Shown here one piece after another: positions 17,051-56,595 of a DNA stretch of 64,000 nucleotides (positions are counted from its first letter, which is position 1; each line of letters begins with the position of its first letter). The position numbers were made by a program, and so were the translations under genes. The notes beneath the pieces were generated by a model. The model did not search any database. It had not been told where the DNA came from and was given only the letters and a program-made list of their open reading frames with translations. Source of the stretch: an uncultured Pelagibacteraceae bacterium (lineage in GTDB: Bacteria > Pseudomonadota > Alphaproteobacteria > Pelagibacterales > Pelagibacteraceae); NCBI GenBank assembly GCA_902595625.1, contig CACJQQ010000004.1, positions 1-64,000 on the forward strand, in the 5' to 3' direction.

Positions 17051-17340
17051 TAAAATAAACTTGGGGCGAACATTTCAAAAATAAAATTCCTTAAAAACAT
17101 TAACGCTAAAATTAATATTACAGGAGAAATATCTATTGAGCCTAAGTTAGGTAAAAATCGTCTTATATAGTTTAAGGCAGGAGCAGTTAGTCTGTAGGAA
17201 AAATCAAGCACTGCATAAACAAATCTATTTCCAGTATTTAAGATGTTAAAAGCAACTAACCAACTTATAACTGCGTTGATGATTAGTATCCATATGTAAA
17301 GTGTTACTACATTATCAAACAATATTAAAACTGACTTCAT
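17050..17340 (-). CDS. YggT family membrane protein
   Basis: Small two- to three-helix membrane protein (96 aa) of the YggT family, often linked to cell-division or osmotic functions but without a fixed biochemical role. The family pattern is visible: a first helix LYIWILIINAVISWLVAFN, then YRLTAPALNYIRRFLPNLGSID, and a last helix SPVILILALMFLRNFIF. It overlaps mscS by 4 bp and folD by 1 bp, so it belongs to the mscS-yggT-folD transcript. Confidence 0.87.
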   Translation of the reverse strand: MKSVLILFDNVVTLYIWILIINAVISWLVAFNILNTGNRFVYAVLDFSYRLTAPALNYIRRFLPNLGSIDISPVILILALMFLRNFIFEMFAPSLF

Positions 17341-21182: not shown

Positions 21183-21604
21183 TGCAATATTGGTTAATGA
21201 AATCTGAACCTGACGTTTGGTCAATTGAACAACAAATAAAAGCCGGAAAAAAAGGAGCGACTTGGGATGGTGTTAGGAATTATCAAGCAGCTAATAATTT
21301 AAAATCAATGAAGATAGGTGATCTATGCTTTTTTTATCACTCAAACATTGGAAAAGAAATTGTGGGCATTGTTAAAGTGATTAAAGAAGCATTTGTTGAT
21401 AAAACCGATAAAGAAAAAAAGTTTGTAGCCGTCCAGGTTAGGTTCCAGGAACTACTAAAATACCCTGTTTCACTTGAAAAAATTAAAAAAAACAAGACTA
21501 TTTCTCACTTACCGCTTATCAAACAGAGTAGATTGTCAGTAATGCCGATTGATTATAAAAGCTGGAAAATTATTTATAAGATGGGTAAGATAAATGCCAA
21601 TTAG
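21182..21604 (+). CDS. EVE domain-containing protein
   Basis: A 140-aa single EVE domain, a PUA/YTH-like fold proposed to read modified bases in RNA or DNA. The start [16 protein letters not shown], then [29 protein letters not shown] and the late [14 protein letters not shown] blocks are diagnostic of the thymocyte-nuclear-protein-1-like group. It is coupled to tsaD, and its stop overlaps the Shine-Dalgarno of acs. The actual ligand in bacteria is unknown. Confidence 0.9.
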
Positions 21605-24353: not shown

Positions 24354-24510
24354 TGTTTTTAGAGTTATTCTAAGCTTTTGTAGATTCAATTTCACGTTGT
24401 ATTTTAAAAACCCTTATTTTACTTAACTTATAGCATTTCATAATGGTTTTAGGGTCCTTTTTTCTCTTTAAATTAAACTCATAATGGGTAAGCTTCCCAC
24501 AACAAATAAT

Positions 24511-24528
24511 ACTTTTTACGTAAAAAGT
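24511..24528. promoter_or_regulatory. 18-bp perfect palindrome upstream of the symporter operon
   Basis: ACTTTTTACGTAAAAAGT is a perfect inverted repeat with no spacer, ending 21 bases before the ATG of the symporter small subunit and just ahead of its GGGGG Shine-Dalgarno (24541-24545). No T-run follows, so it is not a terminator. Position and symmetry fit the operator of a dimeric repressor or activator controlling the symporter genes. The regulator is unknown. Confidence 0.5.
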
Positions 24529-24549
24529 TAAAAATAAATAGGGGGAAAT

Positions 24550-24807
24550 ATGTCAAATAAAGACGCATATTGGAATAAGACCAAAAACCATATGATAGTA
24601 ACATTGGTTCTTTGGGCTTTCTTCTCATTAGTGATCTTCATGTTTGGTTCAGAACTAAACACGATGTCTTTTCTTGGCTATCCACTAGCATATTACATGA
24701 CTGCGCAAGGTTCGCTTCTTGCCTTTGTGATAATTTTGTTTTGGACTGCAAATAAACAAGAAAAAATCGACGAAGAACATGGTTTCTCGGAAAGAGAGGA
24801 TGACTAA
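24550..24807 (+). CDS. DUF4212 family symporter small subunit
   Basis: Short membrane protein (85 aa) with two hydrophobic helices (IVTLVLWAFFSLVIFMFG and SLLAFVIILFWTANKQ) and the family's YPLAYYMTAQGS block. Such proteins accompany the VC_2705-type sodium/solute symporters as a presumed small subunit. It has a strong GGGGG ribosome site. Its stop overlaps the ATG of the large subunit by one base, so the two products are probably made together in the inner membrane. Confidence 0.9.
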   Translation: MSNKDAYWNKTKNHMIVTLVLWAFFSLVIFMFGSELNTMSFLGYPLAYYMTAQGSLLAFVIILFWTANKQEKIDEEHGFSEREDD

Positions 24808-27788: not shown

Positions 27789-29426
27789 ATGTTTGGCCTG
27801 AAAAGCGTCTATTTTTATTTAATTGCTTGTCAAATTATTTTAGTAAAATTTTTCAAAAAATTATATTTTTCGTCTAAAAATTACAACAAATCTTTAGAAA
27901 CTAAGACACCACAACAGGTATACTATAATCCTAATCCTTTCTTACTCTCTATAATTACTTCTTACAATAACCAATCATTTAAAATAAATGAAATCGATCC
28001 AAATATTTTTTGGTTGGAAGATAAAAAGAAAGATACAGAACAAATGCATAATTTTTTTTGGTTAAATCTTATTGATAGAAAATCTGATCATAAAAAATTA
28101 AAAAAAATTATTTTTATCTGGATGTTGAAAAATTCAAAATATAAAAAAGAAATATGGGAAACCTCAACATTAAGCGGTAGAGTAATAAGCTGGGTTTTAA
28201 ATATAGATATCATTTTAACAAATTGTACTTTTGAATTTAAAAAAAATTTTTTTGATTGTATTATCAGTCAAACTAACCACTTAAAAAAAAATATTAGATT
28301 TGAAAAAAATTTTACAAAAAAAATTAAAATATTAACCGCCATAATTTTAACTGGCCTCGTTTTTAAGGAGTACGAAGAAAATTTCGATATTGGCATAAAA
28401 GAATTAGAGGCGCTTGTTAAATCTTATTTTGATAAAAATGGTTTTCCGCTATCAAGAAATCCATATGATTTAGTTTATTTTTTCAAATATTTTATATTTT
28501 GCAAAGAGGCAATCAAAGATAGCCAAAAATATGTACCAGAATTTTTAGATGATATCTTAAAAAAAAACTTAAATTGTATCCATTATATAAAGACACCAGA
28601 CAATCAACTTCCTCTATTTAATGGGGCTGTCTCACTCAGTCTAGATCAAATTCAAAAGTATTTAGATAATTTTAAACCGGATAACAAAATAGATAATTAT
28701 GGAGGTTTATTTAAAGTTAAACATAAAAATCATTTCTTTCTTGTAGATATTGATAAGCCTCCTCAGAAAAAATTTTCAAAATCTTATCAGTCAGGGCCAC
28801 TGTCCTTTGAATATTTTTTAGACGGCGTGAAAATAATTACCAATTCAGGATTCGGAAGTCAGATTTCAAAAAAAACTGAATTACTTAGCAGATTAACCGC
28901 TTGCCAATCGACTTTGACAATAAATGATACCTCCATTACAAAATTTGAAAAAAATAAGATGGTTAGCAAAGTGTTTGGAAACTCAATTAAAGATAGTTTT
29001 AAATCATTTGATTTTCATACGATAAAAGAGGGTGGCTTAATAGGATTCTCAGGATCTAACAACGGCTATGAGAAAAAGTTTGGATGCACTCACAAAAGAG
29101 AGATATATTTAGATAAAGAAAAAAATTACCTTATAGGCAAAGATACTATTTTTAAAGAAAAGGATGGGTATCCGATAAGATATGCTTTTAGATTTCACAT
29201 AAATCCTGACCTGAGTGTTGTAAAAACTATGAGTGGAAATAGTGCTTTAATTCAAATTTCCAAAAATAAATCATTAATCTTTACTATTAAAGATGAGAAT
29301 TTAAATATTGAGAAAAGTATATTTATGGGTGAAAAAAAAATAATTGATAGTGCTTGTATAACAATTAGTGGTAATTTAGTTAATAAAAATAAAATCTTTA
29401 ACTGGGAAATTAAAAAAAGTATTTAA
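27789..29426 (+). CDS. Heparinase II/III-like protein
   Basis: A 545-aa protein with an N-terminal alpha-helical half (WLEDKKKDTEQMHNFFWLNLIDR, then SGRVISWVLN) and a C-terminal beta-rich half containing QSGPLSFEYFLDG and KREIYLDKEKNYLIGKD. This matches the heparinase II/III family arrangement of helical toroid plus beta-sandwich. In alphaproteobacteria a gene of this family commonly sits between rpe and purH and has no proven substrate; an envelope polysaccharide role is possible. No clear signal peptide is seen, though the N-terminus is hydrophobic. Very A-rich and Lys-rich. Confidence 0.82.
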   Translation: MFGLKSVYFYLIACQIILVKFFKKLYFSSKNYNKSLETKTPQQVYYNPNPFLLSIITSYNNQSFKINEIDPNIFWLEDKKKDTEQMHNFFWLNLIDRKSDHKKLKKIIFIWMLKNSKYKKEIWETSTLSGRVISWVLNIDIILTNCTFEFKKNFFDCIISQTNHLKKNIRFEKNFTKKIKILTAIILTGLVFKEYEENFDIGIKELEALVKSYFDKNGFPLSRNPYDLVYFFKYFIFCKEAIKDSQKYVPEFLDDILKKNLNCIHYIKTPDNQLPLFNGAVSLSLDQIQKYLDNFKPDNKIDNYGGLFKVKHKNHFFLVDIDKPPQKKFSKSYQSGPLSFEYFLDGVKIITNSGFGSQISKKTELLSRLTACQSTLTINDTSITKFEKNKMVSKVFGNSIKDSFKSFDFHTIKEGGLIGFSGSNNGYEKKFGCTHKREIYLDKEKNYLIGKDTIFKEKDGYPIRYAFRFHINPDLSVVKTMSGNSALIQISKNKSLIFTIKDENLNIEKSIFMGEKKIIDSACITISGNLVNKNKIFNWEIKKSI

Positions 29427-32122: not shown

Positions 32123-33397
32123 TTAATTTGCTGACTTATTCATAGAGTCAAAGAAGTCAGCATTATTTTTTGTATTTTTTAGTTTTGCAATAAGAAACTC
32201 TATACCATCCATTGTTCCCATAGGGCTAATAATTCTTCTTAAAACATTCATTTTAGATAAATCATCTTTTTCAAATAAAAGCTCCTCTCTTCTTGTGCCT
32301 GATCTAGTAATATCCAGCGCAGGATAAATTCTTTTATCTGCAACTTTTCTATCAAGAATTAACTCTGAATTACCAGTACCTTTGAATTCTTCAAAAATTA
32401 CCTCATCCATTCTACTACCAGTATCGATTAAAGCCGTAGAGATTATTGTGAGCGATCCACCTTCTTCAACATTTCTTGCAGCCCCGAAAAATCTTTTTGG
32501 CCTTTGTAATGCATTTGCATCAACACCTCCTGTTAAAACCTTTCCCGAACTTGGAATTACTGCATTATAAGCTCTTCCTAGTCGAGTAATGGAGTCTAAT
32601 AAAATCACTACATCTTTTTTATGTTCCACTAATCTTTTAGCTTTCTCTATAACCATTTCAGCAACAGCAACGTGCCTTGAAGCAGGTTCATCAAAAGTTG
32701 AAGCTACAACTTCTCCTTTTACGGATCTTTGCATATCCGTAACTTCCTCTGGTCTTTCATCTATTAATAAAACCATTAAATAACATTCAGGATGATTTGC
32801 TGTAATTGATTGGGCAATATTCTGAAGAATTATTGTTTTTCCCGCTCTTGGAGGGGATACAATTAGTGATCTTTGGCCTTTGCCAATAGGGCTTACTAAG
32901 TCGATCAGTCTAGCTGTATTGTCAGGTTTTTTTTCAATTTTTGTTGTTTCAACTTCCAGCTTAATCCTCTCATTCGGATATAACGGTGTTAAATTATCAA
33001 ATGCAATTTTATTTTTTCCTTTTTCAGGTTCATCAAAGTTAATCTTGTTTACTTTCAGTAAAGCAAAATATCTCTCCGCATCTTTAGGCCCTCTTATTTC
33101 ACCCTCCACAGAGTCTCCTGTTCGTAAACCAAACCTTCTTATTTGACTTGGGCTTACATAAATATCGTCAGGACCAGGCAAATAATTAGACTCTATCGCT
33201 CTCAAAAAACCGAACCCATCTTGTAAAACTTCTAGCACACCCGTAGCTGTAATTTGTTCATTTTTTTCTGCTAATTTTTTTAGGATAGCAAAAAGTATTT
33301 CTTGTTTTCTAAGAGTGCTTGGGTTTTCTATACCTAGATTTTCGGCTTCAATAATTAGCTCTGCAGGGTTTTTTTGCTTTAATTCTTGTAAATTCAT
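32123..33397 (-). CDS. rho: Transcription termination factor Rho
   Basis: Hexameric RNA-dependent ATPase terminating transcription (424 aa). The N-terminal helical part ([15 protein letters not shown]) is followed by the RNA-binding cold-shock domain [14 protein letters not shown]. The Walker A region reads [16 protein letters not shown], Walker [17 protein letters not shown], and the Q/R-loops are normal. It is preceded by hemJ on the same strand after a 66-bp gap. The scarcity of intrinsic terminators in the window suggests heavy reliance on Rho. Confidence 0.97.
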
Positions 33398-33463
33398 GTG
33401 ATTTTATTGATTAATAGGAAAGTACTAAAAATATATGGCTTTTTTTAAAAAATTCAAGGCTTT

Positions 33464-33895
33464 TTATAATGGCTTAAAAACAACAACAAATATAACAACA
33501 ATAAGTATAATCGTCGGAATTTCATTAATTATTCTATAAAATTTAGATGTTTTGGTATTTTGAGCTATCGCAAAATCACCTACATATTTGCCAAGCAAGA
33601 AATGGTAATAAGTAAGTATTATTACTAATGCAGTTTTTATTTGCATCCATAGTTCAGAAAAAACGTTAAATCCTAAAGAATGAATTAACAAAAATCCAAA
33701 CAACCAAGAAAGTAACATGGCAGGCATCATTATGTAATTGTAAAGTTTTCGTTCCATAGTTTTAAAAACGTTTTTTTGTGAATCATGAGTAGCTTCAGCA
33801 TGATAAACAAATATACGCGGCAGATACAACAAACCGGCCATCCAAGATATAACTGCGATTAAATGTAATGATTTAAATAAAAGATAAAAGTTCAT
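33464..33895 (-). CDS. hemJ: Protoporphyrinogen IX oxidase HemJ
   Basis: Membrane protein (143 aa, UPF0093) oxidising protoporphyrinogen IX to protoporphyrin IX. It shows four or five helices, with the conserved His in FKSLHLIAVISWMAGLLYLPRIFVYH and the paired basic/His residues around MERKLYNYIMMPAM. An ATG at 33895 is preferred over a TTG two codons upstream. It follows hemH by 2 bases, placing the penultimate haem enzyme with the last one. Confidence 0.92.
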   Translation of the reverse strand: MNFYLLFKSLHLIAVISWMAGLLYLPRIFVYHAEATHDSQKNVFKTMERKLYNYIMMPAMLLSWLFGFLLIHSLGFNVFSELWMQIKTALVIILTYYHFLLGKYVGDFAIAQNTKTSKFYRIINEIPTIILIVVIFVVVFKPL

Positions 33896-33897
33896 AA

Positions 33898-34890
33898 TCA
33901 AATATATTTTTTTACTAATTTTTCAAACAAATTTACATGGTCTGGGTCATCGTTAAGGCATGGAATTAAATCAAAGTTTTTTCCACCGTTATTTAAAAAA
34001 CTTTCCCTGCCCTGAATATCTATTTCCTCTAAAGTTTCTACACAATCTGAAGCAAATCCTGGACAGATTACTAATAAATTTTTTATTCCCTTTTTTGGTA
34101 GTTCTTCTAAGGTTTTATCAGTATAAGGTGTTAACCATTCTTGCGGCCCGAACCTTGATTGGAAAGTAAGTTGTATATCTATCTGATTAAAATTTTCTTT
34201 TATTAATCTTGTAGTTTTATGACAATAACAATAATAGGGGTCTCCTTTATCAAAGTATTTTTTTGGAATTCCATGGTAAGAAGAGATGATTAAATCTGGT
34301 TCCCAGCTAATATTGTCTAATTTCCTCTTAATACTTTTAATTAACGCCTCTATGTAGTCAGGTTCACTTTCATAGTGTGGAATAATTTGTAAACTCGGTT
34401 GCCACCTCATATCCATCAATGATCTATAAACTTCGTCGCAAACGGTTGCCGTAGTAGCTGCTGCGTATTGAGGATACAAAGGAAGAATAATTATATTTTC
34501 ACAGCCAGCAGTTTTCAGAACGTTAAGCTTTGATTTAATACTAGGATTTCCATATCTCATTGCAAAATCTACGATTATTTTATCATTTCCAATTTTATTA
34601 TTTAGCTTCTGTGCTTGGCTTCTAGTAAAATAAAGTAGTGGTGACTCGTTTGTTTCTTTCCTCCAAATCTTTTTGTACGCGTGAGCGGTTTTAGAAGGTC
34701 TGATGGTCAGTATAAAAAGGTTTAGTATTATTTGCCATAATACAGGATTTACCTCTATAACTCTTCTGTCAGATAAAAATTCCTTTAAATATTTTCTTAT
34801 GTCCCACCAGCTTGTTGAGTCTGGGGTGCCAAGGTTTATTAAAAGCACCCCCGTTTTTCCAAATTTTATTTCTGGGTGATTGTCTTTCAT
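33898..34890 (-). CDS. hemH: Ferrochelatase
   Basis: Inserts Fe2+ into protoporphyrin IX to make haem (330 aa). Landmarks are VLLINLGTPDS at the start, YLKEFLSDRRVIE, the FAMRYGNPS segment, LPLYPQYAAATTA, the SYHGIPKKYFDKGDPY block with the metal-binding His, and SRFGPQEWLTPYTDKTL. It lies 2 bases after hemE and 2 before hemJ in a hemE-hemH-hemJ transcript. Confidence 0.96.
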   Translation of the reverse strand: MKDNHPEIKFGKTGVLLINLGTPDSTSWWDIRKYLKEFLSDRRVIEVNPVLWQIILNLFILTIRPSKTAHAYKKIWRKETNESPLLYFTRSQAQKLNNKIGNDKIIVDFAMRYGNPSIKSKLNVLKTAGCENIIILPLYPQYAAATTATVCDEVYRSLMDMRWQPSLQIIPHYESEPDYIEALIKSIKRKLDNISWEPDLIISSYHGIPKKYFDKGDPYYCYCHKTTRLIKENFNQIDIQLTFQSRFGPQEWLTPYTDKTLEELPKKGIKNLLVICPGFASDCVETLEEIDIQGRESFLNNGGKNFDLIPCLNDDPDHVNLFEKLVKKYI

Positions 34891-34892
34891 TT

Positions 34893-35897
34893 TTAATATT
34901 CTCTATAAAACTTAATTAGTTTGCTAACATCATCTGGATTAGTTTCTGGAAGCATACCATGACCAAGATTAAAAATATAAGGTATTCCTTTAAATGTATC
35001 TAGATACTTCTTGGCATTATTTATCATTTTTTGATTTGATGATAATAAAAGTTTTGGATCTAAACCTCCTTGAATAACAGTACCCTTCAAATTTTTTTTT
35101 GCCCATTCAGGGTTTATATCAAAATCTATGTTTAGCCCATTAGGTTTAACAACATTGTTAAATTCTTTATAATTTTCGTTTATTCCTCGTGGAAAGCATA
35201 TAACAGGTATCTTGTTTTTTTTACAAAATTCTACAATTTTTAAATTAGGAATATAACAATAATTAGGTAGATCCTCAGAAGATATTAATCCTGCCCATGA
35301 ATCGAAAATTTGAATTACATCTGCTCCATGGTTAATTTGGTTTTCAATATGTGTACAAAGATATTCGTTTAATTTATCTAAAATTAAATTTACCTCAAAA
35401 TCTTTATTTTTGATCTTTTTATAATCAATTTCGTTTTTATTCGATTTTGCTCCAAGCATGTAAACCAGTAAAGTCCACGGTGCTCCAATGAACGATATAA
35501 GTGATTTTTTTTTGTCTAATTTTTCTCTGGTTTTTTCAATTGCCTTATAAACCGGATGTAAAATTTGTGTAAAAGTGATCTTGTCATTGTTTATAAATTT
35601 TTTAAAATTAAAATTTTCTAATATAGGCCCTCTGTCTTTTATGAAATTAACATTTTGACCTAGAGCGTATGGGACCATGAGAATATCTGAAAAAATAATT
35701 GCTGAGTCTAAATCAAACCTTTTAATAGGTTGCAATGTAATCTCTCTGCTTAAATCACTGTTTAAACAAAGTTTAATGAAATTTGGATTTTGAGATCTAA
35801 TTTTTCTGAATTCAGGTAAGTAACGTCCTGCTTGTCTCATAAACCAAACAGATTTACAAATCTTCTTATTTATTAAAATTTCTTTAAGATTACTCAT
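34893..35897 (-). CDS. hemE: Uroporphyrinogen decarboxylase
   Basis: Decarboxylates uroporphyrinogen III to coproporphyrinogen III (334 aa). The N-terminal VWFMRQAGRYLPEFRKIR, the FSDILMVPYALGQNV segment with the catalytic Asp, GAPWTLLVYMLG, IQIFDSWAGLIS and NLGHGMLPETNPD are textbook. It is the left neighbour of the origin-like gap 35898-36168 and is transcribed away from it. hemE sits at the same place beside the Caulobacter origin. Confidence 0.96.
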   Translation of the reverse strand: MSNLKEILINKKICKSVWFMRQAGRYLPEFRKIRSQNPNFIKLCLNSDLSREITLQPIKRFDLDSAIIFSDILMVPYALGQNVNFIKDRGPILENFNFKKFINNDKITFTQILHPVYKAIEKTREKLDKKKSLISFIGAPWTLLVYMLGAKSNKNEIDYKKIKNKDFEVNLILDKLNEYLCTHIENQINHGADVIQIFDSWAGLISSEDLPNYCYIPNLKIVEFCKKNKIPVICFPRGINENYKEFNNVVKPNGLNIDFDINPEWAKKNLKGTVIQGGLDPKLLLSSNQKMINNAKKYLDTFKGIPYIFNLGHGMLPETNPDDVSKLIKFYREY

Positions 35898-36168
35898 TAA
35901 ATAATAATAGTTTATAAGTGTAATATTTACTCTAGATCTTGTTAATTAGATATATAACGATTTATACATTTTTTATACATGGTGAAATTTATAAGTTTCA
36001 TTGATATTACTGATATTAATGGCTTTATTAGTTTTATAAACAGATAAAAAACTCTATTATCAACATTAAATAAAATGTTTAAATATTGTTAATTAATGTT
36101 AATTATTTTTTTGTATTTTTATCTTTAGATGTAAAACATTAATTAATTAATATTTTATTAACAATTTT
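35898..36168. other. Candidate chromosomal replication origin (oriC)
   Basis: This 271-bp gap is extremely A+T-rich and separates hemE (leftward) from ppsR (rightward). The order hemE | ppsR-maf-aroE-coaE-dnaQ-secB-fxsA matches that flanking the Caulobacter crescentus origin. Three 9-mers of the form TTATNAACA occur (36034, 36057, 36155), one base from the DnaA-box consensus TTATNCACA. Three copies of TGTTAATTA (35940, 36087, 36097) are one base from its reverse complement. Two TTATACAT repeats begin 11 bp apart (35962, 35973). Origin activity is inferred; promoters of hemE and ppsR must also lie here. Confidence 0.62.
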
Positions 36169-36987
36169 ATGAACGAAAAATACAATGTATATCTTGTGTC
36201 TGATTCAACGGGTGAAACCCTAGATAGAATTTTCTTATCGTTAAAATCTCAATTTGCTAATTTTGAATATGAAAAAAAGGAATTTGCTTTTATTAGGACG
36301 GAACAACAAATAGATAAAATTTTAAAAGAGTGTAAAGCAATAGAAAATGCAATAATATTATATACAGTAGTTGAAACTAAACTAGCTAAATACTTGGCTA
36401 ACCAAAGTGAAAAGTTTTCTGTTCCGTGCTTCGGCGTTCTAGGAAATTTAATTTTAAGCTTTTCAAAGCTTCTTAATCAAAAAGCAATACATAAACCAAG
36501 CGCCCAGCATGTTCTGGATGAAGATTATTATAAAAGAATAGAAGCTATTCAATTTACTATGTCACATGACGATGGAAAAAAAATAGACGATATTAATAAT
36601 GCAGACGTAATTTTATTAGGTGTAAGTAGGACAAGCAAAACACCAACTTCCATTTACTTAGCAAACAGAGGGTATAAAACAGTAAATATCCCTTTGGTTT
36701 TAGACCAAAGAATACCTGCTGATCTTAAATCAAACACCACTTCGTGCATTGTAGGATTAATAGCAGATCCTGAGAGGTTATCTGACATTAGACGAAATAG
36801 AGTGGCCATAATGAAGGATCAAAAACTTAAAGACTATACAGATTTAGACTCTATAAAAAAAGAAGTGGAAGATTCAAAAAAATTATTTAAAAAAAATAAT
36901 TGGCCTATAATTGATGTAACTAGAAGATCTGTCGAAGAGACGGCCGCATCTATATTGAAAATTATCGATATTAAAAAAAATAAATGA
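36169..36987 (+). CDS. ppsR: Pyruvate, phosphate dikinase regulatory protein (bifunctional kinase/pyrophosphorylase, DUF299)
   Basis: Controls PPDK or PEP synthase by ADP-dependent phosphorylation and Pi-dependent dephosphorylation (272 aa). It has the start YLVSDSTGETLDRIF, the P-loop-like GVSRTSKTPTSIYLANRG, and the late DVTRRSVEETAASIL. It is the first gene right of the candidate origin, as in Caulobacter. It overlaps maf by 4 bp and heads the plus-strand run to dnaQ. Confidence 0.94.
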   Translation: MNEKYNVYLVSDSTGETLDRIFLSLKSQFANFEYEKKEFAFIRTEQQIDKILKECKAIENAIILYTVVETKLAKYLANQSEKFSVPCFGVLGNLILSFSKLLNQKAIHKPSAQHVLDEDYYKRIEAIQFTMSHDDGKKIDDINNADVILLGVSRTSKTPTSIYLANRGYKTVNIPLVLDQRIPADLKSNTTSCIVGLIADPERLSDIRRNRVAIMKDQKLKDYTDLDSIKKEVEDSKKLFKKNNWPIIDVTRRSVEETAASILKIIDIKKNK

Positions 36988-51111: not shown

Positions 51112-52440
51112 ATGAGCATTTACGCACTTTCATCAGGCAGAGGTCCGTCAGGAATAGCTATCGTTAGAGTCTCAGGAAAAGACACTCTTAAAATTTGCAA
51201 GAACTTAACAAAATTAAAAAAAATCAAATTTAATGAAGTAAATTATTGCCAATTCTATGATCCAAAAACCGATAATATAATAGACCCAGAAGCTCTATTA
51301 TTGTGGTTTCCCGGGCCTAATAGTTACACAGGCGATGATTTAGCTGAGTTTCAGGTTCATGGAAGTAATGCTGTTATTAATGCCTTATTAAAAGCACTAT
51401 CAGAACAAGATAATTGTAGATTAGCCGAACCTGGTGAATTTACAAAGATAGCTTTTCAAAATGACAAAATTGATCTCTTAAAAGCTGAAAGTATAGGTGA
51501 TTTAATTCATGCAGAAACAGAGCTTCAAAGAGATCAAGCTGTTAAATTAGTTCAAGGAAATGCTTCAAATTATTATAATGATTTGAGAGAAAAATTAATA
51601 AAATCTCTATCTTATATCGAAGCTAAAATAGATTTTGCTGAGGATGATTTACCAGAAAAAGTTTTAAAAGAAGTACAAAACTCTATTAAAGAAATTCATG
51701 GAGATATTCATAAAATAATCGAAGACAATAAAATTGGAGAAAAAATTAGAGATGGCTTTAGAGTTTCTATAACAGGTGAAGTGAATGCAGGTAAATCTTC
51801 CCTTTTAAATTTGATAGCAAAAAGAGATGTCGCTATAGTTTCAGATGAAGCAGGAACTACAAGAGATGTAATCGAGACATATTTAAATATTGATGGTTAT
51901 CCAGTAATTTTAGCTGACACTGCCGGTATTAGAGATGCGAAAAATGAAGTTGAAAAAAAAGGTATATCTTTAGCTTTAGGAAAATCAAAAGAAGCAGACC
52001 TAAATATCATTGTTATAGATAATTCTTCAAAAAGCATAAACAATGAAATAAAAAAAATGATCAATAAAGATACGATAGTTTTACTTAATAAGTCAGATGT
52101 ACAAAATAAGCAAAATCATAAATTTGATGCAGATACGGTGTTAGCATCAGTTAAAGAAAATAAAAACATCGACAATTTGATTAAAAAGATAAAAGAAAAA
52201 TTAAGCAAAAAATTCACGTCTAATAATGTTACTCTAATCACGAGAGAAAGGCACAGAATTAAACTTAATCAATGTTTAAAAGAAATAGATAACTTTCTTA
52301 AAAAAGATCAAAATAAAGATTTAGAATTAGCTGCAGAAGATCTAAGAATGGCTACAAGGCATCTTGGAAGTATTGTCGGTAAGGTTGATGTCGAGGAAAT
52401 CCTTGGATCTATATTTAAAGATTTTTGTATAGGTAAATAA
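51112..52440 (+). CDS. mnmE: tRNA modification GTPase MnmE
   Basis: GTPase that with MnmG installs cmnm5/nm5 at U34 of wobble tRNAs (442 aa). The N-terminal folate-binding part is IYALSSGRGPSGIAIVRVSG. The G1 motif is TGEVNAGKSSLLN near residue 223, then DEAGTTRDVIE, DTAGIR, the NKSD motif, and the C-terminal zinc-free FCIGK with its Cys. It is 4 bases after the Ubi-type gene and is followed by mnmG. Confidence 0.96.
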   Translation: MSIYALSSGRGPSGIAIVRVSGKDTLKICKNLTKLKKIKFNEVNYCQFYDPKTDNIIDPEALLLWFPGPNSYTGDDLAEFQVHGSNAVINALLKALSEQDNCRLAEPGEFTKIAFQNDKIDLLKAESIGDLIHAETELQRDQAVKLVQGNASNYYNDLREKLIKSLSYIEAKIDFAEDDLPEKVLKEVQNSIKEIHGDIHKIIEDNKIGEKIRDGFRVSITGEVNAGKSSLLNLIAKRDVAIVSDEAGTTRDVIETYLNIDGYPVILADTAGIRDAKNEVEKKGISLALGKSKEADLNIIVIDNSSKSINNEIKKMINKDTIVLLNKSDVQNKQNHKFDADTVLASVKENKNIDNLIKKIKEKLSKKFTSNNVTLITRERHRIKLNQCLKEIDNFLKKDQNKDLELAAEDLRMATRHLGSIVGKVDVEEILGSIFKDFCIGK

Positions 52441-52482
52441 AATACCTCTTGTATTCCTAATATACCGCGTTACATTCATCTT

Positions 52483-54351
52483 ATGACTAAACATAGGTAT
52501 GATGTAGTGGTAATAGGGGGCGGACATGCTGGATGTGAGGCAGCAGCAGCATCTGCTAGAATGGGCGTTAATACAGCCCTTTTTACACATAAAATAGAGA
52601 CTATTGGTGAAATGTCGTGCAATCCTGCTATCGGAGGACTTGGAAAAGGGCATCTTGTAAGAGAAATAGATGCTTTAGATGGTGTTATGGGCGTCGTAGC
52701 CGATAAATCCGGTATCCAATTTAGATTATTAAATAGAAGTAGAGGCCCAGCAGTGCAGGGGCCACGTACTCAGTCAGATAGAGCCCTCTACAAAGATCAT
52801 ATGCAGAAGATTTTACTAAATTACAAAAATTTAGAGGTTATAGCTGATCCAGTCATTAAATTTTTATTTGAGGGAGATAAAATTATAGGTTTTGTATGTC
52901 AAAGTGGAAAAGAAGTGAGGACTAATGAGCTTATATTAACTACTGGTACTTTTCTTAATGGATTAATTCATATTGGAGATACTCAAATACCAGCAGGTAG
53001 GTATAATGAGAAACCATCTACAGGTTTAAGCGAACAGTTAGCAAAATTCAAAATGCAAATAGGAAGATTGAAGACAGGAACACCACCTAGACTTGATGGT
53101 AGCACAATCAATTACGATGATTTGGAAATGCAGCCAGCTGATGATGATCATTACTACTTTTCTTTCCTTACAAGTAAAATTGATAACAAACAAATCAAAT
53201 GTGGTATGACGTATACTAATAACGAAGTCCACAAAATTATTAGTGATAATATTTCTCGAAGTGCAATGTATTCGGGAAACATTAAAGGTGTAGGACCTCG
53301 TTATTGTCCCTCCATAGAAGATAAAATTGTAAAATTTAAAGATAAACAACAACATCAAATATTTCTTGAACCCGAAGGTTTAAAGGACAATACTATTTAC
53401 CCAAATGGTATATCTACCTCTCTTCCTGAGGAGATTCAGCTTAAAATATTGGCTAAAATCAAGGGTTTAGAGCAGGCTCAGATGAAAAGAGCGGGGTACG
53501 CCATAGAGTATGATTATGTAGATCCAAGAGAGCTTAACGCAACGTTAGAAACAAAAAAAATCAAGTCATTATTTTTAGCGGGACAAATTAACGGTACTAC
53601 TGGTTATGAAGAAGCAGCAGCTCAAGGTTTGATTGCTGGTATCAACGCGGCTTTAAAAATCAAAAATAAATCTGAGTTTGTTTTAGATAGATCAACTTCC
53701 TACATTGGTGTGATGATCGATGATTTAATAACTAAAGGTGTCACTGAACCTTATCGTATGTTTACCTCTAGAGCAGAATATAGACTAACCTTAAGAGCTG
53801 ATAACGCAGATCAAAGATTAACAGATCTTGGTATAAATTTGGATTTAGTTGGATCTGAAAGAAAGAATATATTTTTAGAAAAGAAAAAAAATATTTTTTC
53901 ACTAAATAATTTTTTAGAAACGAAATTCTTGAGTCCTAATGAAGCAAAAAAATATGATATTAAAATTGCTATGGATGGAGTCAAAAGATCATGTCTAGAA
54001 GTTATGGGTCAGCGAAAAGTAAATATGGCAAAAATAAGGCAAATATTTAGTGATATACCTGTATTTCCTGATCCAATAGAAAAGCAGGTTGTAATCGATG
54101 CTCACTACATGGGTTATTTGAAGAAACAGGAGCGAGATATAAAATCTTTTAAAAAAGATGAGTCAGTTATCATTCCTAAGAATATTAATTATGAAAATTT
54201 AAGTGGTTTGTCTAACGAGGTTAAGTCGAAGTTGATTTCTATAAGGCCTAAAACGCTAGGACAGGCAATCAGAATAGACGGCATCACACCTGCAGCTATA
54301 ATAATCTTATTATCTCATATTAAAAAGCTAAACTTCAAAGCCACTGCTTAA
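52483..54351 (+). CDS. mnmG: tRNA uridine-34 carboxymethylaminomethyl synthase MnmG (GidA)
   Basis: FAD partner of MnmE (622 aa). The dinucleotide fold is [21 protein letters not shown], followed by [67 protein letters not shown] and [18 protein letters not shown]. Full length. It overlaps rsmG by one base, in the conserved mnmE-mnmG-rsmG-parA-parB cluster close to the origin. Confidence 0.97.
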
Positions 54352-54965
54352 TGCAGAATAAAGAAGTTATAGGCTTTCTTCAAAATCACCTTAACTATAG
54401 TTCAAAAAATATATCTGACATCAAAGTGTTCGTTAACGAATTGCTTAAAGCGAATAAAAAGCATAATTTTATCTCCAAAAGCACTGAAAACATAATTTGG
54501 CATCGACATATCCTTGATTCAGCTCAACTAGTAAAATTTATCGATTTCTCAAAAGGTTCTTTATCAGATTTAGGCTCTGGAGCTGGTTTTCCAGGGATAA
54601 TTTTAGCTTTATTTAACAAAAAAAAAGACTTTCACGTGAAATTATTTGAGAAATCACCAGTTAAAAGAGCTTTTTTGAGGGATATAAGTGATAAATTATC
54701 ATTAAAAATTGAGATCCTTGGTAATGTTTATGACTACTCAATCAATTCAGACTATATAGTATGTAGAGCTTTTAAGAAATTAGATGCAATAATACAAGTT
54801 TCACGTGAAATCGCAAAAAAGCCCCATAAATTAATAATTTTAAAAGGTCAAAACGCACAAAAAGAATTAAAAAAAGCTTTCAAAAAGGAAAAATACGATT
54901 ATAAACTTGAAAATAGTATAACAAATGAGGACTCTAAAATAATTATAGTCAATTTTAAAAAATGA
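54351..54965 (+). CDS. rsmG: 16S rRNA (guanine-527-N7)-methyltransferase RsmG (GidB)
   Basis: Methylates G527 of 16S rRNA (204 aa). It shows HNFISKSTENIIWHRHILDS, the SAM-binding DLGSGAGFPGIILAL, LFEKSPVKRAFLRDI and VCRAFKKLD. Its coding sequence also contains two parS-like palindromes (54628-54643 and 54797-54812), so it doubles as the likely centromere. It overlaps parA by 4 bp. Confidence 0.95.
   Translation: MQNKEVIGFLQNHLNYSSKNISDIKVFVNELLKANKKHNFISKSTENIIWHRHILDSAQLVKFIDFSKGSLSDLGSGAGFPGIILALFNKKKDFHVKLFEKSPVKRAFLRDISDKLSLKIEILGNVYDYSINSDYIVCRAFKKLDAIIQVSREIAKKPHKLIILKGQNAQKELKKAFKKEKYDYKLENSITNEDSKIIIVNFKK
54628..54643. other. parS-like centromere site 1 (inside rsmG)
   Basis: The inner 12 bases TTTCACGTGAAA (54630-54641) match the bacterial parS consensus TGTTTCACGTGAAACA exactly; the two outer bases on each side do not. 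It is 319 bp upstream of parA. ParB from this locus would be expected to load here. Confidence 0.75.
54797..54812. other. parS-like centromere site 2 (inside rsmG)
   Basis: GTTTCACGTGAAA (54798-54810) matches 13 of the 16 consensus parS positions, including the full 12-base palindromic core. It lies 169 bp after site 1 and 150 bp before parA. Two such cores so close together in a strongly A+T-rich genome are very unlikely by chance. Confidence 0.82.
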
Positions 54966-55747
54966 CGACAACAATTTCAGTAATTAATCAAAAAGGCGGA
55001 GTAGGTAAAACAACAACGGTAATAAATTTGGCAGCATCACTGTCCATTTTGGGTCAGAATAATCTTGTGATAGATTTAGATCCTCAAGGAAACGCCACAA
55101 CAGGATTTGGAAAAAATAATAGTGATGAAGACAAAAATATTTACAATTTATTAATAAAAAAAATTAATCTAGGACAAGCTATACAAAAAACTAATATACA
55201 AAATTTAGACATCATAGGATCACATGTAAATTTATCTGGTTTAGAAGTTGAAACAGCAAATGACTCAAAAAGAGCATTTCTTTTAAAGGAAATATTATCA
55301 TCAGAAAAATCAGGGTTACTTAAAAAGTATGACAACATATTTATAGATTGTCCGCCTTCATTGAGCTTGCTTACTATTATGTCTTTAGTTGCATCAGATG
55401 AGTTGTTAGTTCCTTTGCAAACAGAATTTTTTGCCTTGGAAGGTATTACGCAATTGGTAAAAACAATTGACAGAATTAAAGAAAATCTTAATCCATCACT
55501 TTCTATAAGAGGAATACTTTTAACTATGTTTGACAAAAGAAACAAACTTTCTTCAGAAGTAGATAGGGAAGCAAGAAATTATTTTAAAGACAAGGTATAT
55601 AAAACTGTTATCCAAAGAAATGTAAGGTTGTCAGAAGCGCCATCACATGGATTGCCTTGTGTTATTTATGACAAAAGTTGTGTTGGAAGTAAGTCATATT
55701 TTAAATTAGCTGAAGAATTTAAAAACAAAATGGTTAGTGCTGCATGA
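54962..55747 (+). CDS. parA: Chromosome partitioning ATPase ParA
   Basis: Walker-type ATPase segregating the origin region (261 aa). The deviant Walker A is INQKGGVGKTTTVINLA with the signature Lys. Further motifs are VIDLDPQGNATTGFG, IFIDCPPSLSLLTI and PLQTEFFALEGITQL. It has no N-terminal helix-turn-helix, so it is chromosomal type. It overlaps rsmG and parB by 4 bp each, and parS-like sites are just upstream. Confidence 0.96.
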   Translation: MTTTISVINQKGGVGKTTTVINLAASLSILGQNNLVIDLDPQGNATTGFGKNNSDEDKNIYNLLIKKINLGQAIQKTNIQNLDIIGSHVNLSGLEVETANDSKRAFLLKEILSSEKSGLLKKYDNIFIDCPPSLSLLTIMSLVASDELLVPLQTEFFALEGITQLVKTIDRIKENLNPSLSIRGILLTMFDKRNKLSSEVDREARNYFKDKVYKTVIQRNVRLSEAPSHGLPCVIYDKSCVGSKSYFKLAEEFKNKMVSAA

Positions 55748-56595
55748 GTGGAAAAAAAAAAGGATTAGGTCGGGGTTTGTCAGCACTGTTTGGTGATGAA
55801 AAACCTAAAAATTTATCTAAAGAAATTAGACAAACTAACACTGTCTCAATTAGTGATTTGAGCCGAAATCCGTATCAACCAAGACAGCATTTTAGTGAGG
55901 AAAAACTTGAAGAATTAGTCAATTCTATTAAAAAAAATGGAATTATCCAACCAATTGCTGTTCGTCCCAATAAATTAGAAAGTGGGAAGTATGAAATTGT
56001 TGCTGGCGAAAGAAGATGGATTGCCGCTCAACGAGCAGGGCTACATGATATTCCAGTTACAATTTTAGACTTAAGCGATGTTGAATCGTTAGAAGTTGCG
56101 ATAGTAGAAAATATACAAAGAGATGATCTTAATCCCATAGAGGAAGCGCGCGGTTATAAAAGGCTTAACCAAGAATTTAAATATGATCATGAGAGTATTT
56201 CAAAATTAATGTCCAAAAGCAGAAGTCACATAAGCAATACATTAAGACTTTTAACTCTGCCACCTGATGTTATTTCTATGTTAGAGGAGGGAACTTTAAG
56301 CTCAGGACAAGCTAGACCTTTAATAGGCATAACAAATGCATCTTCCATTGCTGAAGAAATAGTTTCAAAAAATTATAGTGCAAGAAAAGTTGAATATTTA
56401 ACTAGAAATAAAAAAGGAAATTTTAAAGAAAAACAAGTTGATGCTAATATTCTAAAAGCACAGGAAAAGATTGAAAAAATACTCGGTTTAAAAATAAATA
56501 TTTCAAATAGAAAAAATAATTCAGGAAAGATTACAATTGAGTATAAAGACTTAGATCAATTTGAATTTATTTCAAATCTGCTTACTAAGAATTAG
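55744..56595 (+). CDS. parB: Chromosome partitioning protein ParB
   Basis: CTPase and parS-binding protein (283 aa). It starts GLGRGLSALFGDE. The CTP-binding region has NPYQPRQHFSEEKLEELVNSI, KYEIVAGERRWIAAQRAG and VENIQRDDLNPIEEARGY. The helix-turn-helix block is SKLMSKSRSHISNTLRLL, followed by LSSGQARPLIG, and a dimerisation domain closes the protein. It overlaps convergent holA by 11 bp. Confidence 0.96.
   Translation: MSGKKKGLGRGLSALFGDEKPKNLSKEIRQTNTVSISDLSRNPYQPRQHFSEEKLEELVNSIKKNGIIQPIAVRPNKLESGKYEIVAGERRWIAAQRAGLHDIPVTILDLSDVESLEVAIVENIQRDDLNPIEEARGYKRLNQEFKYDHESISKLMSKSRSHISNTLRLLTLPPDVISMLEEGTLSSGQARPLIGITNASSIAEEIVSKNYSARKVEYLTRNKKGNFKEKQVDANILKAQEKIEKILGLKINISNRKNNSGKITIEYKDLDQFEFISNLLTKN

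Follow-up and report, generated by a model that had tools for sequence, protein, structure and literature searches.

The hemE-ppsR gap and described origins

The junction between hemE and a COG1806 gene is described as the site of the experimentally determined Caulobacter origin and of the predicted Rickettsia origin, and the predicted origins of Wolbachia, Ehrlichia and Anaplasma are described as sharing the hemE flank but carrying a CBS-domain gene on the other side (hemE-COG1253) (PMC1914354). The Caulobacter crescentus origin, Cori (hemE-CC_0001/COG1806), spans 404 bp and is A+T-rich for its genome. Its repeats are described as TGATCCACA G-boxes and TCCCCA W-boxes (PMC4285127). For Rickettsia prowazekii and R. 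typhi, the predicted origin (hemE-RP001/COG1806) has an A+T content of 82% and a reported length of 383-384 bp (PMC1914354). A search of the literature returned no experimentally mapped SAR11 origin among the papers it listed. Few groups of marine bacteria are as abundant as SAR11, and estimating its growth in situ from sequence coverage requires the position of its origin. One study of SAR11 replication reports that a robust clade II reference for coverage-based growth was not found (PMC9589681).

In the window, by which we mean the whole 64,000-nucleotide stretch of DNA analysed here, the same two genes flank a gap of 271 bp (35898-36168, no strand assigned; G+C 0.148). We consider this gap very probably to be the chromosome replication origin of a SAR11 clade II bacterium, corresponding in position to the hemE-COG1806 origins described for Caulobacter and Rickettsia. 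One flank is hemE (uroporphyrinogen decarboxylase, URO-D; 34893-35897, minus strand; Pfam PF01208, 7.3e-82) and the other is ppsR (COG1806, DUF299, a Kinase-PPPase or kinase-pyrophosphorylase; 36169-36987, plus strand; Pfam PF03618, 1.5e-91), and the A+T content of the gap (85%) is higher than that of the genome. A sequence-only reading had recognized a Caulobacter-type arrangement, and the junction does match the one described as mapped in Caulobacter and predicted in Rickettsia (PMC1914354). Compared with Cori, the gap has the same flanks and is likewise A+T-rich, but it is shorter, has TTATNAACA repeats where Cori has G- and W-boxes, and contains neither a canonical DnaA box nor, by the pattern used, an IHF-like match; CtrA was not found in the genomes tested. 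The Rickettsia prediction shares the flanks and a similar A+T content but is longer. This kind of origin is already known by its address; the contents differ enough from those of Caulobacter that we call it a variant and treat its binding-site part as putative.

The coordinates of the gap and its flanking frames, first drawn from the sequence, were borne out, as were the identities of the neighboring genes: Pfam returned hemE, hemH, ppsR, Maf, shikimate dehydrogenase (aroE), CoaE, SecB, FxsA, GidB/rsmG, a ParA-like protein and ParB, and NCBIfam returned rho, mnmE and mnmG. The dnaQ-like gene encodes an RNase_T exonuclease (Pfam). On the hemE side, rho, hemJ (both by NCBIfam) and hemH occupy 32123-34890 on the minus strand. 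The genes on the other side had been read as transcribed away from the gap, which holds for ppsR-maf-aroE-coaE-dnaQ but not for secB and fxsA, both on the minus strand and directed towards it. The starts of rho, hemH, mnmE, mnmG, rsmG and parA lie within 20 kb of the gap as proposed, whereas the end of parB is 20.4 kb away.

The noted A+T-richness was confirmed, with the gap having the lowest G+C of any 271-bp stretch in the window (63,730 positions scanned). It had also been called the largest gap, but in an ORF-based count (ORFs of at least 60 aa) two others are longer, 24396-24806 (411 bp) and 17051-17336 (286 bp), so that it ranks third. The first of these, the longest ORF-free stretch (G+C 0.326), lies upstream of a sodium:solute symporter, and the gene at 27789-29426, which precedes the AICARFT/IMPCHase gene purH, encodes a Heparinase II/III-like protein. 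When the window was scanned for Rfam families and tRNAs, a single tRNA-Gly was returned and nothing inside the gap, no terminator-like site was found within 35700-36400, and the best DNA hairpin in the gap was unexceptional (z -1.78; 13 of 200 shuffles fold equally well).

Conservation of the junction

The window belongs to an assembly (G000) of 789 kb in 29 contigs that is 72% complete. In a ppsR search of named genomes, the best 80 loci included Candidatus Pelagibacter ubique HIMB058 (94% identity), SAR11 PRT-SC02 and uncultured Pelagibacteraceae, and HIMB058 is assigned to SAR11 clade II in the SAR11 replication paper (PMC9589681). Divergent hemE and ppsR genes around a gap of 263-289 bp were observed at 152 of 156 loci, giving 118 distinct gaps of which that of the window is one, and the remaining four loci (L060, L075, L105, L138) end at contig ends. 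In a first set of relatives ppsR was present in 20 of 41 genomes and adjoined hemE in all 20, while an order-wide hemE search found the junction retained at each of the 25 loci inspected, including other genera of the family. As an origin address, the hemE-ppsR junction would be usable even in fragmented genomes.

Class-wide, ppsR was present in 170 of 241 alphaproteobacterial genomes. A second family of the order (f2) was represented by 16 genomes, none with a ppsR match, so the flank of the origin there must differ, if that origin sits at hemE. In two genomes of genus g5 (G144, G147) the sole hemE match was about 30% identical; the match in G144 lies at 718 kb and ppsR at 140 kb, and the junction therefore seems to be broken or hemE replaced.

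Repeats and regulators

The canonical DnaA box, TTATNCACA, does not occur in the window gap. Its frequency was 0.03 per gap in 100 distinct clade II gaps, equal to shuffles, and 0.56 per gap in 16 distinct gaps of a Pelagibacter-like genus. When this box and its 24 single-base variants were counted, TTATNAACA was the commonest of the 25 forms in both genera, with an enrichment of about 15-fold. Clade II gaps contained 2.05 copies on average versus 0.14 in dinucleotide shuffles, with at least one in 90% of the 100 distinct gaps, and the Pelagibacter-like gaps contained 2.50 versus 0.15, with at least one in all 16. The second commonest form, in clade II only, was TTATNCATA, which reflects the TTATACAT repeats.

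Three DnaA-box-like repeats of the window gap lie on the plus strand: TTATAAACA (36034-36042), an exact TTATNAACA; TTATCAACA (36057-36065), 14 bp after it; and TTATTAACA (36155-36163), by the ppsR start. Inverted copies with one mismatch to the repeat, TAATTAACA, were found on the minus strand at 36087-36095 and 36097-36105, both in a conserved TGTTAATTA-TGTTAAT block, and at 35940-35948. A genus-conserved pair of TTATACAT repeats (35962-35969 and 35973-35980, plus strand) occupies 35962-35980, and the most A+T-rich 40 bp of the gap (36065-36104, no strand assigned; 3 G/C of 40) form a candidate unwinding element. A pattern of two TTATNAACA-type boxes within 30 bp had a single match in the whole assembly of the window, located in the hemE-ppsR gap. 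Across 25 genomes this pattern matched in eight, five of them at the hemE-ppsR gap by coordinates (G000, G002, G008, G011, G012), and its reversed control matched in five genomes. The gap of one clade II contig (G137) contained no exact TTATNAACA and six or seven one-mismatch boxes.

These repeats bear on a second explanation, in which the gap is simply a long divergent promoter region of hemE and ppsR and the true origin lies elsewhere nearby, for example beside dnaA. The two genes are indeed divergent and TTATTAACA overlaps a promoter-like -35 hexamer, but promoter-like sites in the gap are at chance level (5 found versus 5.6 expected). Within the 300 bp upstream of dnaA, the canonical box was present in none of 34 regions and TTATNAACA in about 6%, below the shuffle mean, so a better origin beside dnaA, named earlier as what would overturn the proposal, was not supported.

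The ARPRQ (VRPRQ in the complete genome G145) and RDHTT motifs are kept in 38 SAR11 DnaA sequences (one partial), with NRDHTT as the recognition helix, and the changed box is thus not explained by an obvious change in that helix. For the origin that we propose at the gap, we infer that DnaA binds the clustered TTATNAACA-type repeats, with the two TTATACAT repeats as perhaps a further target. The A+T-rich core at about 36065-36104 would then melt, probably as the start of unwinding, and two forks would be loaded and depart in opposite directions, with parABS, 15-20 kb away, serving segregation. We tentatively suggest, with somewhat more doubt than belief, that SAR11 has kept the ancestral alphaproteobacterial origin address and rebuilt its contents as a compact, CtrA-free origin of 270 bp whose initiator sites have become TTATNAACA, which differs from the canonical DnaA box by an A in place of C at position six. 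Should this altered box prove real, the timing of initiation in a streamlined alphaproteobacterium without CtrA would become directly testable by DnaA binding.

Four genomes were searched for the DNA-binding domain of OmpR-type regulators, and each yielded four such proteins. None of the four in the window's assembly was CtrA (26-137 bits with the CtrA model versus a cut-off of 350), and CtrA was likewise not among the four in G145, nor among the families below 1e-40 there. Because the former assembly is incomplete, the absence of CtrA rests mainly on G145, and it agrees with the reported absence of a ctrA ortholog in Pelagibacter (PMC2877005). The CtrA-like pattern TTAA-N7-TTAA had one palindromic match in the window gap and 1.37 matches per gap versus 0.53 in shuffles, a moderate enrichment that the TTAAC-containing repeats may explain. 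For IHF we used WATCA-N4/5-TTR, a pattern not exactly the published WATCAN5WTR; it had no match in the window gap and averaged 0.36 matches per gap versus 0.34 in shuffles. GcrA is a cell-cycle regulator of Caulobacter, and a short protein encoded beside phoB/phoU (L315, minus strand) is presumably GcrA-like, judged by eye.

Skew, gene orientation and segregation genes

Since the window's genome is in 29 contigs, skew was measured in relatives. The expectation of a skew switch at the gap was realized in part, with a transcription-corrected switch at the gap in G137 but a raw GC skew in G145 that was undecided between the gap and dnaA. These two positions are well separated, dnaA lying 72.8-76.1 kb from hemE in 25 of 26 clade II genomes with both on one contig (60.9 kb in the other). 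In G137, a 638-kb clade II contig with the gap at 286.6 kb and dnaA at 214.7 kb, the best single switch of the transcription-corrected four-fold skew was at 287.7 kb (GC) and 286.6 kb (TA), and none of 1000 sign-flips reached either value. The bootstrap intervals were broad, spanning 232-331 kb in the GC case and 217-323 kb in the TA case, with dnaA outside both, and the switch statistics were 768 (GC) and 1334 (TA) at the gap versus 607 and 1146 at dnaA. The second clade II contig, G138, has the gap at 123 kb and dnaA at 198 kb. Its four-fold GC switch was at 102.6 kb (interval 85-131; 3 of 1000 flips; statistic 302 at the gap versus 127 at dnaA) and its four-fold TA switch at 174.6 kb (interval 122-186), with statistics of 1000 and 1003 that do not separate the two. 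Raw GC skew did not switch at the gap in either contig (41 kb in G137, 359 kb in G138).

The complete genome G145 (99% complete) represents another genus of the family; here the gap lies at 67 kb and the dnaA gene at 129 kb. Raw GC skew around the circle has its switches at 98 kb, where the polarity is that of an origin, and at 674 kb; the former point is about equally far from the gap and dnaA, and raw skew alone therefore makes no choice between them. The four-fold TA skew has switches at 55.8 kb and 791 kb that exceeded every one of 100 sign-flips, and the four-fold GC skew was not above chance (426 versus 576, the largest of 100 sign-flips). An origin beside dnaA would fit the midway raw switch in G145 and the four-fold TA skew of G138, but the G137 skew and the four-fold GC skew of G138 favor the gap, and we regard the promoter-region explanation as very unlikely.

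The usual rule is an excess of G on the leading strand. At four-fold sites in G137, G138 and G145, C and A are instead relatively enriched on the strand that leaves the gap, an inverted polarity that by itself would point to a terminus there. One survey lists a significant C bias in just 9 of 330 chromosomes, and Pelagibacter HTCC1062 appears in its list of chromosomes with unequal arms (PMC2099444). With a terminus at the gap, the origin would be expected roughly half a chromosome from it, close to rpoC and the ribosomal protein genes; besides the GC and TA polarity, this would accord with the L2 and rpoC genes of G145 (743-752 kb), whose closeness to the opposite switch counts weakly against an origin at the gap. 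The four-fold GC effect in G145 was strong for GGN and weak or reversed for GTN, CTN and TCN, and this unevenness across codon families suggests codon choice. Against a terminus, transcription-neutral DNA, taken from intergenic regions whose neighboring genes converge or diverge, shows in each of the three genomes an excess of G over C on the strand leaving the gap (pooled P 0.0044). The same DNA has A over T leaving the gap (pooled P 0.011), and intergenic skew in single genomes gave P values of 0.05-0.14, none strong.

Gene orientation also bears on this choice. The fraction of coding length directed away from the gap in G145 was 0.642 (terminus at 670 kb) or 0.599 (terminus at 790 kb), and the 16S rRNA gene is directed away from the gap in both G145 and G137. 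A terminus at the gap would set the rRNA gene and 60-64% of coding length against the forks. In the survey, 304 of 325 chromosomes carried all their rRNA on the strand assigned as leading, although rRNA was itself used there to assign the origin (PMC2099444). With parABS and the homologous junction also speaking against it, a terminus at the gap appears extremely unlikely, and we judge that the case for an origin is decided by gene orientation together with rRNA, parS and homology. Matches to a dif consensus in G145, G137 and G138 were weak and scattered and did not locate the terminus.

The origin interpretation is thus supported by the homologous junction and the corrected skew in relatives. 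The junction, its length and the repeated motif are conserved; a switch of strand composition and gene orientation at the gap was found in relatives only (G137, G145 and partly G138), with inverted polarity at four-fold sites, and the window's own genome presumably behaves like them.

In Caulobacter, the ParAB genes lie near the origin. The window has parA and parB at 54962-56595 (plus strand; Pfam) and a parS-like site inside rsmG (54797-54812, plus strand), 18.6 kb from the gap, with three mismatches to the parS consensus and the TTTCACGTGAAA core intact. Of the parS-like sites pointed out earlier, two matches were found at up to three mismatches (54797 and a weaker one at 21466), but at least two also occurred in 7 of 100 shuffles, so by themselves they are not beyond chance. 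In G145, G137 and the window alike, a parS-like site lay within rsmG, at a distance from the gap of 8 kb in the first and about 18.5 kb in the other two. The mnmE-mnmG-rsmG-parAB genes, at 51.1-56.6 kb of the window (51112-56595), are on the ppsR side of the gap there and in G137, and on the hemE side, straight after rho, in G145 (71.8-77.4 kb); this change of side is a rearrangement around the origin within the family.
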